Virus record (IMG/VR): IMGVR_UViG_3300017992_000068
Location: 1-29,311 of that record
Source: a virus
Length of the DNA stretch: 29,311 bases
Reading direction: 5' to 3' (one strand)
Of this stretch, positions 1,866 to 14,265 are shown piece by piece. The position numbers were made by a program, and so were the translations under genes. The first letter of the stretch is position 1. Each line of letters starts with the position of its first letter. Below the pieces are notes generated by a model, which saw only the letters and a list, made by a program, of their open reading frames with translations, was not told the origin of the DNA and did not search any database.

Positions 1866-2981
1866 TTATATACCGGCGGCATGTTCAATTATCCTCCTGC
1901 CAACCCACTCTGCGACCTGCGGCACTACGGCGTTGCCTAGTCCTCTAAGTCGGTCCACCCGAGCGGGAACTTTTGTGGCTATACGAGGGATGCCATCTTC
2001 CCAACTGGATATTTCCCAATTCGTCTTCCCGTCGAATGCCAAAAATCGTGACACGGTTTGCATAGAGTTTGAATGTTCTCTGCTAAATTGTTCTGAATCC
2101 TCTGGTCTATATGATGAGCCTGCAAATCCAAGCATGAGCCGCACGCCTCGCATTTCGTCTTCAAGTGCTTCCGGGCACGCCACGAATATCCGTGCTTGGT
2201 CAATGTCTGGCGCGTGTTCGCACACGAAAGCGAACAAAACCTCCGCTGCTTGAAGGCGGTCAAGTCCTCCAGTCGCTTTCCGTATCGCTTCCGCACCATT
2301 TCCTCGCCACAACTCTCGCAATATTTTGGTTGCTCTTTTACTCTCTTCATAACTCATTCCTTTTCCGATATGTCGCTCCAACCATGAGGGAAACCCATCA
2401 GACCTTCTACCCACGCCGGGTTCAACTGACCACCAACTTCGCTTGATAGAGGAGGCGAATGATTCCCGTGGTCTGTTCCTGTTCCGCTCCTGTAGTCTCG
2501 TTCTGTCGGTGTCGGCCACAATGAAGATCCGTTCTCGTCTGTGCGGGGCATCGAAGGCGCAAGCTGGAATATTAAATGTCCAGCAGGTGTAGCCTTCACT
2601 TTCCAGGTCAGATAGCACCTGGTCGAGATAGGTGGTGACGATTCCAGGAACGTTCTCGGCAAGGACGTATCGCGGTCTTGCCTCTCTAATAATCCGGATA
2701 AATTCTGGCCAGAGATTGCGGTCATCTGCTGCGCCTCGTCGCTTCCCGGCGACACTGTGAGGCTGGCAAGGGAATCCTCCAGCAATAAGATCAACTGGTT
2801 CGAGGTTCCGTTTTCCACACTTTCTGACATCTCTGTACCTCCTAACCTCCGTCCAATGCTTCTCCAATACTTTTGTGCAGTAGTTGTCAAGTTCGACCTG
2901 CCACAGGCACGTCATTCCAGCGCGCTCAAGCCCCAGGTCAATGCCTCCTATCCCCGCGAACAGCGAGCCGAAGGTCATCAT
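1866..2981 (-). CDS. DNA (cytosine-5) methyltransferase
   Basis: 371 residues with all the main C5-MTase motifs in order: I 'FAGIGG' (8-13), IV 'GGFPCQP' with catalytic Cys72, VI 'AENV' (108-111), VIII 'HRRERIF' (147-153), and IX/X 'RVDRLRGLGNAVVPQ' (341-355). It transfers a methyl group from SAM to a cytosine in double-stranded DNA, probably protecting phage DNA from host restriction; no cognate restriction enzyme is seen. The stretch 155-330, where the target-recognition domain should be, is unusual. Most of it overlaps two other recognisable ORFs in the +1 frame, and two pre-motif-IX-like segments occur ('EPGVGRRSDGFP' at 188-199 and 'WEDGIPRIATKVP' at 327-339), as if the 3' end were chimeric. 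Its ATG overlaps the stop of the lipoprotein gene (ATGA). Confidence 0.85.
   Translation of the reverse strand: MMTFGSLFAGIGGIDLGLERAGMTCLWQVELDNYCTKVLEKHWTEVRRYRDVRKCGKRNLEPVDLIAGGFPCQPHSVAGKRRGAADDRNLWPEFIRIIREARPRYVLAENVPGIVTTYLDQVLSDLESEGYTCWTFNIPACAFDAPHRRERIFIVADTDRTRLQERNRNRPRESFASSIKRSWWSVEPGVGRRSDGFPSWLERHIGKGMSYEESKRATKILRELWRGNGAEAIRKATGGLDRLQAAEVLFAFVCEHAPDIDQARIFVACPEALEDEMRGVRLMLGFAGSSYRPEDSEQFSREHSNSMQTVSRFLAFDGKTNWEISSWEDGIPRIATKVPARVDRLRGLGNAVVPQVAEWVGRRIIEHAAGI
1979..2350 (-). CDS. HNH endonuclease ORF nested in the methyltransferase gene
   Basis: 123 residues in the +1 frame relative to the methyltransferase. Three cysteine pairs (Cys11/14, Cys39/43, Cys67/70) precede an HNH motif: 'LQAHHID' (His79-His80), Asn92 in 'ENIQTLCKPCHDFWH', Cys97/100, His101 and His105. 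This is the usual zinc-stabilised phage HNH fold, a metal-dependent DNA nicking or cutting enzyme. Its ATG lies three bases after the stop of the other nested ORF, in the same frame, so the two may be coupled. It may be a free-standing homing-type nuclease inserted in the methyltransferase gene without breaking its frame. The motif density makes an accidental ORF very unlikely; expression is not proven. Confidence 0.7.
   Translation of the reverse strand: MKRVKEQPKYCESCGEEMVRKRYGKRLEDLTAFKQRRFCSLSCANTRQTLTKHGYSWRARKHLKTKCEACGSCLDLQAHHIDQRIQNNLAENIQTLCKPCHDFWHSTGRRIGKYPVGKMASLV
2354..2890 (-). CDS. Phage protein of unknown function overlapping the methyltransferase in +1
   Basis: 178 residues, wholly inside the methyltransferase gene in the +1 frame. 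It holds stretches I recognise from phage hypothetical proteins that sit near DNA methylases: 'EDSLASLTVSPGSDEA', 'YLTWKVKATPAG', 'SSLWPTPT' and a C-terminal 'GQLNPAWVEGLMGFPHGW'. No function is known to me. The DNA for 'EDSLASLTVSPGS' also encodes the MTase 'GGFPCQPHSVAGK' motif, and the DNA for 'LNPAWVEGLMGFP' encodes 'VEPGVGRRSDGF'. The family may therefore have arisen by overprinting. The alternative is a spurious ORF family created by conserved methyltransferase codons. Start choice is uncertain. Confidence 0.5.
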   Translation of the reverse strand: MTTTAQKYWRSIGRRLGGTEMSESVENGTSNQLILLLEDSLASLTVSPGSDEAQQMTAISGQNLSGLLERQDRDTSLPRTFLESSPPISTRCYLTWKVKATPAGHLIFQLAPSMPRTDENGSSLWPTPTERDYRSGTGTDHGNHSPPLSSEVGGQLNPAWVEGLMGFPHGWSDISEKE

Positions 2982-3982
2982 CTCAACATCTCCTCATACA
3001 CGTACCACGCGGGCTTCTTCATTCTTGCATACGCCAGGTCGGAGTTGCGCCAACCGTTGCCGTAAAGCGTGTACCACAGCACGTGGTCAACCAGGTCTAA
3101 GTTGAATATATAGTGCGCGTAATCTGCCTGCGCCTTCTCGAATGAGCCGCCGCAGTCTCCGTCACAAAGTAAACTGGTCTCTGTAATCCAGATAGGTTTG
3201 TCCACGCCGTACCTGCGTAAAAAGTCAAGTTGTCTCAGCACTTGCTTGTAGTCCATCTTGGGGTATGTCAAGTATGAGTGAATTGAGTACACGTCATAGT
3301 TGGGTTGGGTCGATAACATCCCCTCGGTAAACTCTGCCTTTTTACTGAACGGGTCAAGAAGTGTCGCACCTGCCATGATGTAAACGCTGGGATGGTACGC
3401 ATGTACGATGTTGTAGACATAATCCACGAACTCACCATACAGTTTGCCCGCCTGGAAATACGTCAACCTGTTCGGCCAACATCCCATCAGCGGGGAGTTC
3501 GGGTCAATGCCGCTCGCGTGCGTCTCGGGTTCGTTCCATATCTCAACCGCGTTGGGGTGATACCTGTCTATCACGCTGACAACGAACATTGCGTAGTCAT
3601 AGTAGTAGTGTTCCGCGGGAGGAGAGCAAACATAACCCGCGTACTGCCTCGCCCAGGTGGGTGTAGTCTTGATGTTCAACACTAACGGATATGACTCAAG
3701 TGCGCGAATGTCAGCGTCAAGCTTTGAAGGCCAGTTTAGAACTCCGCGCTCTTCTTCAATCTTGTACCAGAACACCTGCCGCTCAACGGTAGATCCTGGT
3801 ATGAGGTACGGTTGGTTGTAATCGGTCGCGCCTTCCAACTGGACGCCGACACGGTGCAGCGCGGGTCTTGACTTGATTGCGATTGGCATGAATATTTTAT
3901 GCTCCTGTATTCCTAGTGGTTTTGTTGGTACACAAGAGACCATGATTACCGCCAGAATAAATAAAACCAGATATTTTCGCAT
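2978..3982 (-). CDS. Clan GH-A-like glycoside hydrolase lipoprotein
   Basis: 334 residues from the ATG chosen here. This start gives a signal peptide 'MRKYLVLFILAVIMVSC' with a lipobox-like end at Cys17; a longer reading adds 14 unlikely residues. The body resembles TIM-barrel hydrolases of clan GH-A (GH5/GH39-like): 'AVEIWNEPE' places the acid/base at Glu151, and 'PIWITETS' places the nucleophile candidate at Glu268, with 'YSIHSY' between them. It would act outside the cell on a polysaccharide. 'HKIFMPIAIK' (28-37) resembles a spacer common in Chloroflexota exported proteins. A secreted, lipid-anchored hydrolase is odd for a lytic gene set; lysogenic conversion or envelope degradation are possible. 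Coupled to the methyltransferase by ATGA. Confidence 0.65.
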   Translation of the reverse strand: MRKYLVLFILAVIMVSCVPTKPLGIQEHKIFMPIAIKSRPALHRVGVQLEGATDYNQPYLIPGSTVERQVFWYKIEEERGVLNWPSKLDADIRALESYPLVLNIKTTPTWARQYAGYVCSPPAEHYYYDYAMFVVSVIDRYHPNAVEIWNEPETHASGIDPNSPLMGCWPNRLTYFQAGKLYGEFVDYVYNIVHAYHPSVYIMAGATLLDPFSKKAEFTEGMLSTQPNYDVYSIHSYLTYPKMDYKQVLRQLDFLRRYGVDKPIWITETSLLCDGDCGGSFEKAQADYAHYIFNLDLVDHVLWYTLYGNGWRNSDLAYARMKKPAWYVYEEMLR

Positions 3983-4156
3983 GTCATAATAATTCCGGGC
4001 ATGGGTGCCGCCGTTCCCATGCAATGAAGGACACTTGTTCTGGTATCAAAGATTGAAGTAGGATCTCTCCTTTAGTTCTCCACCGCAGGGTTAGGCGGCA
4101 TCGTACTGCGGATCGTTGCGGGGTGGGAGCATACGCTTCTACCACGTACCGCTTAG
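3983..4156. other. Gap with no convincing gene
   Basis: These 174 bases between the tRNA-like element and the lipoprotein gene hold one open frame reading from the element, which I take as a shadow. A 6-base stem (CCGCAG/CTGCGG, minus strand) lies in the middle. No promoter or terminator is clear. Confidence 0.4.
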
Positions 4157-5478: not shown

Positions 5479-6189
5479 TTACTTTACCCACTTAGCATAT
5501 ACCTTGCCGCGGTAGCGCATTGCGGCGTATTGGCAGTAGCCCAACACCATCCAGAGATCGTTGCCATCGGGGAATGAACTGCCTCGTACAAGACATATAA
5601 CCTCGACCAATTCGCCTTTATTTAGGTGATATGTAACAGGGTTAGCAGTTCCTGGTCCAGTACGTATATTCAGGAACGGGTCAGCGGTGATTTCCGCAAC
5701 GGGCAACTCTGGAAACTGCGGTATTTCAATCTCAACTGGTTCCGGTTCCTCGTCAATGCACTTGACCAGGTATGGAGCCGGGTCGATTGGCACTCCATCT
5801 TTACGAAGTTCAAAGTGCAGGTGTGGTCCGGTGCTATTGCCCGTGTTGCCCAAATAACCAACAAAATCTCCGGCTCTGACATCCTGACCTTCGTCAACGA
5901 CAATATCTCTTAGATGGGCATAAATAGTCATAAAGTGAATGTTGTGAGCGATACGTACATGATAACCATAGCCAGTTTTAGCCCATCGCCTATCAGATAC
6001 AACCCCATCAGCCGAGGCAAGTACGGTTGTTCCCATAGGAGCGCCAAAGTCAACCCCCCCATAGTAATAAACGCCACTCGGACATGGACCAGGCTTATGG
6101 CACCACCCATTCACCTTTGCCCACTTCACATGCTCCGCAAACGTCTGTGTTATTGGAGCATTTGACGGGACTGGATATAAAAGTTTCAT
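5479..6189 (-). CDS. M23 metallopeptidase with SH3b domain, endolysin candidate
   Basis: 236 residues. Residues 41-140 match the LytM/M23 fold: '[20 protein letters not shown]', 'YAHL' (His92) and '[10 protein letters not shown]' (His123, His125). M23 enzymes cut peptide cross-links of peptidoglycan using zinc held by HxxxD and HxH. Here the first ligand position, normally His in 'HxGxD', is Tyr43, while Asp47 is kept; His31 might substitute, or activity may be altered. An acidic Pro-rich linker leads to a bacterial SH3 domain (about 166-236, '[19 protein letters not shown]') that would bind the wall. No signal peptide, so export needs a holin; none is recognised nearby. Ribosome site AAGGAG. 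It lies with early genes, not after the tail genes. Confidence 0.8.
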
Positions 6190-6935
6190 TGTGTCTCCTT
6201 ATCTTCTGGCATCCTCGTGTATTTATTTGTGATAATGCTCCGCAGGTTGGCATCCCGCAGGTCGGCATCCCGCAGGTCGGCACTCCGCAGGTCGGCATCC
6301 CGCAGGTCGGCATCCCGCAGGTCGGCATCCCGCAGGTCGGCATACCGCAGGTCGGCACCCTGCAGGTTGGCACTCCGCAGGTCGGCATACCGCAGGTTGG
6401 CATACCGCAGGTCGGCATACCGCAGGTCGGCATACCGCAGGTCGGCACCCTGCAGGTTGGCACTCCGCAGGTCGGCATCCCGCAGGTCGGCATACCGCAG
6501 GTCGGCATACCGCAGGTCGGCACCCTGCAGGTTGGCACTCCGCAGGTCGGCACCCTGCAGGTTGGCATACCGCAGGTCGGCACCGCAACACCAGCCCAGC
6601 CGGATAATGCGCCAGAACACACGTTTACTAACACGTTTCAAGCGGAGTTCCCTCACCCCTACTTTCTCCTTGCTTTCACCAATGATGCCTCGATACTCAC
6701 AAAACCACGGCCACCAACCGACAGGTGCGTATCGCGCGGATAGTTTCTTCATGACGTGCCACCTGCCCGCTCCACAATCCTTACCATCTGGTTCAGCAGG
6801 TTCGGGATGTGTGAGCCACGGACCCCACTTCTCGTCAGGTCTTGGCAGGGGATCTATGGTTTCACCCCCTTCGTATTCCGTCGCCCCGTACTGGTTCAAG
6901 AACTTCCAGCCGCGACCATCTATTTTTTCGGTCAT
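6186..6935 (-). CDS. Pentapeptide-repeat protein, longer copy
   Basis: 249 residues. The first ~115 form a Trp-rich domain ('[20 protein letters not shown]', '[20 protein letters not shown]') followed by a basic stretch ('[19 protein letters not shown]'). Residues 117-232 are about 23 tandem A(D/N)LRx pentapeptides, which fold into a right-handed quadrilateral beta-helix. It ends '[15 protein letters not shown]'. Some family members mimic DNA and protect gyrase; this one has no known target. It overlaps the endolysin start by 4 bases and is a tandem duplicate of the next gene upstream, with nearly the same ends. The 15-base codon repeat is so regular that other frames and the opposite strand stay open. 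Confidence 0.85.
6236..6585 (-). repeat. 15-base coding repeat array (pentapeptide array 1)
   Basis: About 23 copies of a 15-base unit, plus-strand consensus CCGCAGGTCGGCATA, differing at a few fixed positions (CCGCAG or CTGCAG; GTCGG or GTTGG; final CATA, CATC, CACT, CACC). Higher-order blocks repeat too, such as the 'ACCCTGCAGGTTGGCACT' junction seen three times. The near identity suggests recent expansion by slippage or unequal exchange. Confidence 0.85.
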
Positions 6936-7546
6936 TGTGTCTCCTTATCTTCTGGCATCCTCGTGTATTCGTTTGTGATAATGCCGCGCAGGTCAGCACC
7001 CTCCAGGTCGGCATACCGCAGGTCGGCATCCCGCAGGTCGGCATACCGCAGGTCAGCACCCTCCAGGTTGGCATCCCGCAGGTTGGCATTCCGCAGGTCT
7101 GCATACCGCAGGTTGGCATCCCGCAGGTTGGCACCCCGCAGGTTGGCACCCCGCAGGTCGGCATTCCACAGGACGGCATTCCATAGGTTGGAACCCTTAC
7201 ACCAACCCAACCGGATTACACGCCAAAACACACGCTTTGGTACAAGGCGCAACCGCAATTCACGGACCCCAACCTTTTTATCGCTCTCGCCAAAGATGCC
7301 TCGATATTCGACGAACCACGGCCACCAACCAATGGGCGCGTATTGTGCTGACAGTTTCTTCATCACATGCCAGCGACCAGAACCGCAATCCTTACCATCT
7401 GGTTCAGCAGGTTCGGGATGTGTGAGCCACGGACCCCACTTCTCGTCAGGTCTTGGCAGGGGATATATGGTTTCAACCCCTTCGTATTCCGTCGCCCCGT
7501 ACTGGTTCAAGAACTTCCAGCCGCGACCGTCTATTTTTTCGGTCAT
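6932..7546 (-). CDS. Pentapeptide-repeat protein, shorter copy
   Basis: 204 residues, paralogous to its downstream neighbour: the first ~115 residues are nearly the same ('[20 protein letters not shown]', '[20 protein letters not shown]'), and the C-terminus '[16 protein letters not shown]' matches. The pentapeptide part (about 118-190) is shorter, with around 14 units. The two copies have diverged more in the repeat region's edge ('[13 protein letters not shown]') than in the N-terminal domain. The start codon overlaps the stop of the 67-residue gene (TAATG), with GAGGAG upstream, so translation is coupled. Role unknown; the shared N-terminal domain suggests a common partner. Confidence 0.85.
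6983..7196 (-). repeat. 15-base coding repeat array (pentapeptide array 2)
   Basis: About 14 copies of the same 15-base unit as array 1, with more base changes (ATTCC, CTCCAG) and decay toward the 5' side of the gene. Array 2 looks older or less homogenised than array 1. Confidence 0.8.
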
Positions 7547-11264: not shown

Positions 11265-12764
11265 TCACCATCCTAAAATCGTGTTGGTCTCGAAGGTTGC
11301 CGGGAATATCCAGTATCCCAATACGTCCTCTGGGTCGGGCTCTAACCTCCAAGTCGTCCTGCAACCGCGGGTCGCCTGCCAGTCATGCTCGATGTAGGTG
11401 ATGTAGTAATCCCCGTCAATCCCCAGTTTATCAATATCCAGCACGACGCCATCGAATAAATCATATGCAAACTGGTAGGTAGGTCTCTCCTCGAAGCGTA
11501 TCCAGGGTACTTTGCGGGGATCTGCGTACAAATATATTGCAAATCCCGCGTGGTCTGCCGCTTCTTGTGATTCCTGGGTCCAAATCTCATTTACCGTCAT
11601 GTCGCGCCTACCATAATCGTTGATGCTGACGGTATCTGATTCGATAGCAAACGTCTTGCTCTCGTCCTGGTACAATTCCCCGCGCAGTTTCATCAAGGTC
11701 AGGTAAACGCCTCCCGCATCGTTGTTCGTGATTTCCAATTTCGCCTCGGTTGCATAATCAGTCATTGAGATGCTAATTTGCGCGGTCTTATCCGCGCCGC
11801 CGCCTCCTTCCTCCGTATTGGCGGTATAGTCCGTGGTAGCTACAGGCGTGGTCACGCTCTTAGCGGGAGCCCATTCGCCCTCGTCCTGGTACTCAGCCCA
11901 AATGGTCAAAGTACCACTTGCGCCGATATATGGGATGTCTGATAGTCTCCAAATCTCTATTGATCCCGACTCGCGCCTCGGGTGAGCTCCAATCCTGATG
12001 CGATTCTTTATCTCCTCCCATGGCTGCTGCAGCTCCATGTCCTTTAATAATTCAGACTGCGTGATCGTGACTTTTGGATCTAATCCATAAATGCGCGCCT
12101 CATAACTAAATGTGCCATCTGTCGCTACAAATGCGTTGCCCGCCCAAGTGTTCTCCAGTTCGTTGATCGCCTCCAGCACGGTCTTCTTCGGGTCTGACCA
12201 CCAGTAGGGCATCGTGTCGCCGTTATTTTCAATCCCCGTACCACCCAATTCGCTGTTGGTCTCAAAAATCATCGGGAATATCCAGCCCGAAGTATCAGCG
12301 AAAGGCCAACCTGCAGCGACCGTTAAGTCGTTGATCGCCTCATTGACTAGGTAATCGGTCTGCACATCCCCGTGTTCGCAGTTCTGCTCCTGTAACCAGT
12401 CCAGCCCGTCAGAGCATACGATTTGCGCCTCCGATCTCCCCTGGAAGCCCCGTTGTGGTCGTACATCACGGATAAACCCGGTGAATAGGTTGTAAGTCAA
12501 TGTGCCATCAGTTGCTTTTATCCGCACAACGCGGTTTGGTAGTATGTACCCGTAAAGTTCCCCAGAGGTGTTGAACGGGTCATAGCGACCATCGTAATTA
12601 TCCAGGGTGAGGTACGCCATCCCAGGGTTCACATGGGCGTAACCGTCCTTTTCCACAGTCCTGCGCTTGCCACGCTGGATGTTGAACCGGATCACCCGCC
12701 CGCCCTCATCGGTGAATGTCCCGTTATCGTCCCAGTCGATGTAAATGTAATATTGGGTCGCCAT
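11265..12764 (-). CDS. Tail-tip / minor tail protein
   Basis: 499 residues. 'QYYIYIDWDDNGTFTDEGGR', 'GMAYLTLDNYDGRYDPFN', 'LPNRVVRIKA' and 'LFTGFIRDVRPQ' resemble phage minor tail proteins that follow the tape measure and build the distal tail or hub. The C-terminal part is beta-rich, with 'YLYADPRKVPWIRFEERPTY' and 'DGDYYITYIEHDW'. No peptidase motif seen. It lies one base past the tape measure gene stop. Confidence 0.65.
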   Translation of the reverse strand: MATQYYIYIDWDDNGTFTDEGGRVIRFNIQRGKRRTVEKDGYAHVNPGMAYLTLDNYDGRYDPFNTSGELYGYILPNRVVRIKATDGTLTYNLFTGFIRDVRPQRGFQGRSEAQIVCSDGLDWLQEQNCEHGDVQTDYLVNEAINDLTVAAGWPFADTSGWIFPMIFETNSELGGTGIENNGDTMPYWWSDPKKTVLEAINELENTWAGNAFVATDGTFSYEARIYGLDPKVTITQSELLKDMELQQPWEEIKNRIRIGAHPRRESGSIEIWRLSDIPYIGASGTLTIWAEYQDEGEWAPAKSVTTPVATTDYTANTEEGGGGADKTAQISISMTDYATEAKLEITNNDAGGVYLTLMKLRGELYQDESKTFAIESDTVSINDYGRRDMTVNEIWTQESQEAADHAGFAIYLYADPRKVPWIRFEERPTYQFAYDLFDGVVLDIDKLGIDGDYYITYIEHDWQATRGCRTTWRLEPDPEDVLGYWIFPATFETNTILGW

Positions 12765-12765
12765 G

Positions 12766-14265
12766 TTACCTTCTTAAGGCATCATTTATTATCGGTACTA
12801 ACTGTCGTTCAACTTCATATTGGTCTACAAACGATACAGCCGGGGAATACGTTAAATTAACCGTTGTCTGTCCTGGCTTAATGCGTGAATGACCAGGAAC
12901 CCAGGTATTCATATTGGACGAGGTTGTAGGGTTTTCTCCGCCTCCCCCTAAATTTGGTAGGGTAATGTTGAATGCACCTAATACCGCGTTGATTGCTGTT
13001 TGACCCATTTTAAACCAGAGCATTGCCCACCAGCGACCTACCGATAATACGCCATTACCAATCGCTGTTAGAATGTCTCTTCCGACCTGCCCCCAATCAA
13101 CACTTCGTATGTACTCCAGCGTATCTTCTATACGCTTCTCCATTACCCCTTTTATCGTATCCCAGATGCTTTTCCATAATTCCTGTAGAGTGTCTCCAAA
13201 TTTCTCCCAGTCGCCCTCAAATGCCGCGCTGAATAACTCGAATGTAAGTTGCAATCCCTCCCAGACGCCCTCTACGAAAGTTTTGATACCCATAAAATCA
13301 CTTTCCCAGGCAGAGCGCAAACCAGCAATCCCAGCTTTCATCGCCTCAATTTTTGGAGACAACCATTCCCAGAACTCGCGCAAGGCTGGTAATAATTCCT
13401 CCTTCACCCAGCGGTAGGCATCCTTTAGCCAGGGGATTAATTCCTCTCTCAACCATCTGGCAACGTCCCTGATCCACTGTTGGAACTCCTCAGATGATAC
13501 AAACTCGGTGATTTCATCTGCAAGATCCTGTATCAATGGTAGAAACGCCCCTCCGATTTCTTTAGCAGCAGTATCTTTCAGGTTGACCAGTGTTACGCTC
13601 AGTTGTTTGAATGGGTCGCTCATCTCGGGCAGGTTTTCGGTATTGATAGCAAGCTGTTGCATCACGGCATCAAATATCGCCATTTGCTGCTCGCTCTTTG
13701 TCAATTCCTTTGCGGTCTTTCCGACCGATTCTGCATAGGCCTCCGTTGCGGCAGTCAAATCAACCTGTACCCCCAGGTTGTCCAAAATCATCGGGCTTAC
13801 ACGCCCAACGCCGCGCACAAGACTATCCATCAGGAATCCCATGTCCTCGCCGGTCGCTGCGCTAACGCGGCTGAGATAATTCATGGCATTTGGTAATTCA
13901 TTGGCAAAATCATCACTCACCAGACTGGCTGCCATGTTGTAGGATTTCATCAGGTCGGTATTGCGAATCAAGCCCCCTGACTGCCTTCTAAAGGCATCCA
14001 TTAATTCATCGGCAGATTTTCCAGAACTCTCAGCAATCCCCTCGAATGCTTCCTCAATAGGACCGAGTTGGGCGGCATCTTTCGCCAAAACACCCAGACC
14101 AACCGCTAAACCACCAACCGCAGCTGTGGTCGCTCCAATTCCAGCTACGACTGCAGTACCAGCAAGTTTGCCCAGTTTGCCCAATGATCCAGATAAGCCG
14201 CCAATTATACCTTTTGTTTGATCTTTGGCACTTATAATGATTTGTAGTTCTTCTTTGGTCGCCAT
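12766..14265 (-). CDS. Tail tape measure protein
   Basis: 499 residues. The order (tube, chaperone with frameshift, this gene, tail tip) fixes its role in setting tail length. The N-terminus begins 'TKEELQIIISAKDQTKG', a usual tape measure opening, followed by a Gly/Ala-rich hydrophobic stretch (about 22-65, 'LGKLAGTAVVAGIGATTAAV'). Long amphipathic helices with Trp repeats ('REELIPWLKDAYRWVKEELL') follow. At roughly 1.5 Angstrom per residue the tail would be about 75 nm, which is short. No lysozyme or peptidase domain seen. Its ATG overlaps the end of the frameshifted chaperone by no bases. Confidence 0.85.
   Translation of the reverse strand: MATKEELQIIISAKDQTKGIIGGLSGSLGKLGKLAGTAVVAGIGATTAAVGGLAVGLGVLAKDAAQLGPIEEAFEGIAESSGKSADELMDAFRRQSGGLIRNTDLMKSYNMAASLVSDDFANELPNAMNYLSRVSAATGEDMGFLMDSLVRGVGRVSPMILDNLGVQVDLTAATEAYAESVGKTAKELTKSEQQMAIFDAVMQQLAINTENLPEMSDPFKQLSVTLVNLKDTAAKEIGGAFLPLIQDLADEITEFVSSEEFQQWIRDVARWLREELIPWLKDAYRWVKEELLPALREFWEWLSPKIEAMKAGIAGLRSAWESDFMGIKTFVEGVWEGLQLTFELFSAAFEGDWEKFGDTLQELWKSIWDTIKGVMEKRIEDTLEYIRSVDWGQVGRDILTAIGNGVLSVGRWWAMLWFKMGQTAINAVLGAFNITLPNLGGGGENPTTSSNMNTWVPGHSRIKPGQTTVNLTYSPAVSFVDQYEVERQLVPIINDALRR

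Follow-up and report, generated by a model that had tools for sequence, protein, structure and literature searches.

A probable two-polypeptide C5 cytosine methyltransferase encoded in two overlapping frames of a viral genome, with an inserted HNH gene at its dual-coded site

The window analysed here is the whole 29,311-nucleotide stretch of the IMG/VR virus record IMGVR_UViG_3300017992_000068 (positions 1 to 29,311). It contains a C5 methyltransferase gene, in which a first-pass annotation had recognized two further coding regions in the +1 frame. All three open reading frames were found where that annotation had placed them, the enclosing one (alpha) running from 2981 to 1866, with two nested ones in +1, referred to here as beta and HNH (Table 1). 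The alpha start codon forms an ATGA overlap with the stop of the upstream gene. For beta, a length of 178 residues had been given, corresponding to a start at TTG 2890; the likelier start is the ATG at 2830, behind AGGAGG, which gives 158 residues. The stop codon of beta (TGA, 2356-2354) is followed 3 nt later by the ATG of HNH at 2350. The two pairs of peptides that had been listed as sharing bases are both correct, namely GFPCQPHSVAG with DSLASLTVSPG, as seen on inspection of the sequence, and VEPGVGRRSDGF with LNPAWVEGLMGFP, as seen in the alignment with the empty-site relatives described below.

Table 1. Features of the methyltransferase locus in the window.
Feature	Position	Strand	Evidence or content
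alpha, C5 cytosine methyltransferase large subunit (putative), 371 aa	1866..2981	-	motifs I-VIII and X, without motif IX
beta, nested +1 gene, 158 aa (start at TTG 2890 possible)	2354..2830	-	phrog_1008 match, third-position constraint, frames
likely beta ribosome-binding site AGGAGG, 7 nt before ATG 2830	2838..2843	-	sequence
predicted HNH endonuclease, 123 aa, +1 of alpha	1979..2350	-	four Cys pairs, HH..N..H
423-nt insert (141 codons), flanked by the two copies of the motif IX/pre-X site	1971..2393	-	comparison with the empty sites of L005 and L006
5' adaptor of the insert	2351..2393	-	beta tail HGWSDISEKE*, alpha linker, Shine-Dalgarno (SD) sequence AAGGA (2362-2358)
downstream target-site copy	1929..1970	-	alpha pre-motif X VPARVDRLRGLGN; beta-frame fossil FPLGWTDLED*

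As to the surroundings of the locus, the gene upstream (2978-4024) is glycosyl-hydrolase-like (PF11790), and it is its stop that overlaps the methyltransferase start. Just downstream of the methyltransferase, a GIY-YIG-like (MUG113/T5orf172) gene at 1204-1725 is possibly a second homing-type nuclease. At 6186-7546, the genes of two pentapeptide-repeat proteins lie side by side with a 4-nt overlap. Two neighbouring 499-aa ORFs at 11265-14265 were considered as duplicates, which proved wrong.

Alpha matched PF00145 (E 5.7e-49), with residues 2-164 only, and the Pfam search returned no other match for it. Within this fold, motifs I, IV (PCQ), VI (ENV), VIII and X could all be located. It had been assumed that the enclosing ORF keeps the complete set of motifs; motif IX, however, is missing from this chain, and a motif IX-like block sits instead in the +1 frame, in the nested protein. 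The same truncation is seen in most of the nested loci described below, where Pfam coverage ends at about residue 165; in canonical enzymes from these genomes, the match extends to about profile position 323. The AF2 model of alpha is confident at residues 1-160 and 350-370, the latter around motif X, and low at most of residues 170-349; it could be aligned with M.HhaI over 168 columns (Foldseek). The alpha frame is open throughout, including across the HNH.

Beta belongs to phrog_1008 (E 9e-27). Its layout comprises an N-terminal arm, a TRCYLTWK...L block (the LTWK hairpin), variable blocks of the WPTP type and a C-terminal L.P.WVEWLMG(F/Y)P.GWTDL, the motif IX-like block of the window being LNPAWVEGLMGFP. 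The conserved L.P....LMG.P.GW fits the in-frame motif IX of locus L220, RRLTPLECERLQGFPDGWTNI (motif IX profile E 0.02). Beta gave no match in Pfam and no significant match in the PDB, and the AF2 model obtained for it is of low quality (pLDDT 54) and unfit for a fold search; its motif IX is therefore assigned by pattern and position. In the stretch between motifs VIII and IX, which would be the recognition stretch, the mean pairwise score was 56.8 in the beta frame, as against 34.4 in the alpha frame and 33.3 in the unused third frame. Because the frame conserved here is that of beta, the variable, target-recognizing region looks to be in beta, judging from the sequence comparison, and the alpha reading of the same DNA would be a shadow linker.

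Relatives of the locus were collected by tblastn with beta (130 phage records) and by searches of IMG/VR (best 80 of 138 relatives) and of GTDB genomes (best 80 of 347), followed by frame-by-frame scans. It should be noted that most loci were collected with beta or HNH as the query, which does not in itself force a +1 overlap. Among the relatives scanned, about 150 loci, from phages and prophages, show the +1 nesting of the window locus. Of 160 loci without the HNH, 149 have beta in +1 relative to motifs I-VIII, with a return to the alpha frame for motif X; all the HNH-less nested loci use one common overlap frame between motifs IX and X. The distance from the beta MG to the alpha GN is exactly 38 nt in 122 HNH-less loci; among HNH carriers it is 492 nt in 18 loci and 461 nt in 6. 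Nineteen loci, mostly HNH carriers, are "split", with motif X fused to beta. A third layout was observed in L051, L060, L071, L079 and L157, which have a copy of motif IX in the I-VIII ORF and motif X in another ORF, while in L223 (Micromonospora) motif VIII is in a different frame from the one that holds the motifs to VI together with recognition region, IX and X. Members of the beta family have already been annotated, as the "g62 internal gene" of Paenibacillus phage Lily and as a "Mte8-like" protein of phage K1H.

A check that the first-pass annotation had proposed was whether homologues of the nested protein always overlap a C5 methyltransferase in +1. This held for the N-terminal arm of beta, in 159 of 159 strong matches in the loci collected, and the arm was seen in the overlap only. 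This finding, like the lack of a Pfam or significant PDB match for beta, is what would be expected if the methyltransferase were an ordinary one-chain enzyme on which an unrelated protein, beta, had been overprinted, in line with the suggestion that the nested family was simply born in this way. Such an origin for the whole of beta is nevertheless very improbable, considering that motif IX is absent from alpha, that the motif IX-like block of beta adjoins motif X, that the frame conserved in the recognition stretch is the nested one, and that motif X is fused to beta in the split loci. Only the N-terminal arm, over motifs IV-VIII, looks overprinted.

Several statistics bear on whether beta is translated. 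No stop interrupts the +1 frame in 96 of 97 non-redundant loci, whereas after synonymous shuffling the mean per-locus probability of an open frame is 0.118. Third-position entropy at conserved four-fold sites falls from 1.89 bits upstream of beta to 1.05 bits inside the overlap. Identity in the beta frame is 52%, against 31% expected from synonymous shuffling; the unused frame is also raised (45% vs 28%), owing to conservation at the DNA level, and the upstream stretch shows almost no excess (22% vs 20%). In 70% of the nested loci, a start in the beta frame follows an SD sequence (4 nt or longer), as compared with 6% of control-frame starts. Third-position conservation, open-frame statistics and in-frame ribosome-binding sites thus support translation of beta. 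Conceivably, programmed ribosomal frameshifting might connect the two frames, so that a single full-length enzyme is made and no separate beta: a passage into the beta frame behind motif VIII and a return to alpha ahead of motif X would restore the canonical motif order, and in some loci motif IX does lie in the I-VIII ORF. Considering, however, that beta has its own stop and the in-frame SD sequences and start codons just mentioned, we regard this as very improbable. The earlier suggestion that almost the whole gene is under double coding constraint holds over the alpha/beta overlap. Across the HNH, all 19 non-redundant loci keep the enclosing frame free of stops, with a shuffled expectation of 0.0077 per locus, while its identity excess (41% vs 34%) is about that of the unused third frame (41% vs 35%), i.e. 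no amino-acid selection on alpha was detected in this stretch, and only stop-avoidance is therefore claimed there.

The HNH matches HNH families weakly in Pfam and PHROG profile searches. Six paired cysteines had been counted in it; its family has eight conserved cysteines, forming four pairs, in addition to HH..N..H. The genes of its close relatives are located between the DNA segments for motifs IX and X. In the HNH-less relatives L005 and L006 the site is present in a single copy (CTCATGGGGTTCCC/AAGCGGGTGGACAGACTTAGAGG, L005 letters), whereas in the window it occurs twice, 423 nt apart, a value equal to the difference between 461 and 38 nt. The empty site bears out the proposal that the HNH entered later and that a segment is duplicated in the enclosing frame, but this segment precedes motif X, not motif IX as had been stated. 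The ends of the insert can slide by up to 6 nt, TTTCCC (2393-2388) being repeated as GTTCCC (1970-1965).

The junction reads VP/xRVDRLRGLGN in alpha and LMGFP/xGWTDL in beta. After the HNH, the displaced end of beta is left as the fossil FPLGWTDLED*, which is also found in many other HNH loci. At the upstream copy, beta acquires the new tail HGWSDISEKE*, whose codons hold AAGGA, the likely ribosome site of the HNH. The 3-nt stop-start distance and the SD sequence recur in L102, L103, L104 and L107, and the 3-nt stop-start is present by sequence in L099. Of the stretches profiled in the alignments, the best conserved one, 24 nt long (0.42 bits), is overlapped by the site and has the insertion point at its edge; for comparison, the lowest value in the motif I-VIII stretch is 0.48 bits and the median 0.94.

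The distribution of the HNH does not follow that of the methyltransferase. The window alpha is 81% identical to that of L005 and 76% to that of L006, both HNH-less, and at most 55% identical to those of HNH carriers, while HNH identity to the window averages 64% and is higher than that of the methyltransferase in 34 of 36 carriers. In a quick tree, three HNH-less rows and the window form one group (support 99), and the HNH label needs nine changes. HNH homologues outside this gene have stops in the alpha frame in eight of nine cases, some over short matches. In L266 and L267, the HNH is shortened to about 71 aa and the enclosing frame is open, which looks like a decaying element. The insert is spread patchily, like a homing element; its movement cannot be dated, since L005 and L006 are only about 80% identical to the window.

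All the close relatives of the HNH reside inside methyltransferases of this kind, and its translation appears coupled to that of beta. On these grounds it could be the restriction partner of the methyltransferase, making a whole restriction-modification system within one gene, rather than a homing nuclease. This is most improbable, given its patchy occurrence, an HNH identity at odds with that of the methyltransferase, the duplicated insertion site, the shortened HNH within an intact enclosing frame in L266 and L267, and the related hidden HNHs in N6/N4 methylases.

The reading that we prefer, and consider highly likely, is that the locus encodes a two-polypeptide C5 methyltransferase, with beta nested +1 in alpha, and that a mobile HNH gene has been inserted at the dual-coded IX/pre-X site. 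Beta, providing the target recognition region and motif IX, would assemble with alpha, providing motifs I-VIII and X, and the pair would methylate DNA. The HNH gene would have entered the DNA coding for motif IX in beta and for the lead-in to motif X in alpha, with the 423-nt insert rebuilding the C-terminus of beta and keeping alpha open as a linker. The HNH is probably translated by ribosomes that end beta and restart 3 nt further on, and the predicted nuclease would cut HNH-less copies of the site and spread by repair (homing).

A more specific proposal, to which we would give an even chance, is that the HNH element is adapted to its dual-coded target. The target DNA would be an unusually stable homing site because the coding of two subunits bars synonymous drift. 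The 43-nt adaptor would restore the beta C-terminus and supply both the alpha linker and the HNH ribosome site, and owing to these three roles a single insertion would be tolerated in two frames. Which subunit receives motif X, alpha as in the EcoHK31I type or beta as in the AquI type, would then be decided by the junction frame.

These results suggest what a widespread family of phage proteins, labelled hypothetical or "DNA methyltransferase", may do. The annotations of PHROG 1008, Lily and K1H concern the same beta family, given as nested or as "DNA methyltransferase", but assign neither a subunit role nor motif IX. If our interpretation is true, many of the phage C5 methyltransferases regarded as "single-gene" would show no activity on expression without the hidden subunit. 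In addition, the locus would be a case of a mobile nuclease that appears to land on dual-coded, highly conserved DNA and to repair both frames.

The beta gene of M.EcoHK31I (YGGCCR) is reportedly nested in the alpha gene in another frame. The C5 methyltransferases M.AquI and M.EcoHK31I naturally consist of two chains, and in the latter alpha carries motifs I-VIII and X and the small beta chain motif IX alone (PMC3404938). The division of motifs is the same in the window, here by pattern and position only. The locus differs in having the variable/recognition region seemingly in beta, as well as in being phage-borne and in the inserted HNH; it should be noted that in M.EcoHK31I the recognition domain has been placed in alpha (PMC3404938), which counts against the reading preferred here. 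With M.AquI, the likeness lies in the 19 split loci, which have motifs I-VIII in one ORF and IX and X in the other, unlike the window locus, which is nested.

As for the HNH, a hidden HNH in +1 was also observed in a one-chain C5 methyltransferase of Staphylococcus phage CUB-EPI_14 (L114, 1836-3638), upstream of motif IX. A hidden out-of-frame HNH insertion, the ShiLan domain, has been described in a mycobacteriophage methylase (PMC11855218). It shares with the window locus the placement of an HNH out of frame within a methylase that nevertheless remains open in its own frame, and sporadic presence at a conserved site; the HNH of phage Lamina13 is likewise in +1. The window HNH is remotely homologous to the ShiLan type (tblastn E 1e-3; hhalign 95.7% with the Lamina13 HNH, at 30% identity). 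The mycobacteriophage hosts examined, however, are N6/N4 and not C5 methylases, and the paper on ShiLan mentions no nested subunit and reports no detectable ribosome-binding site (PMC11855218), whereas here that of the HNH lies in the rebuilt beta tail. No paper describing a two-frame insertion, a dual-coded site and a two-subunit methyltransferase together was found in the open-access literature, and what appears to be new, compared with the known systems, is this combination, that is, a two-frame insertion at the dual-coded site of a two-subunit methyltransferase.
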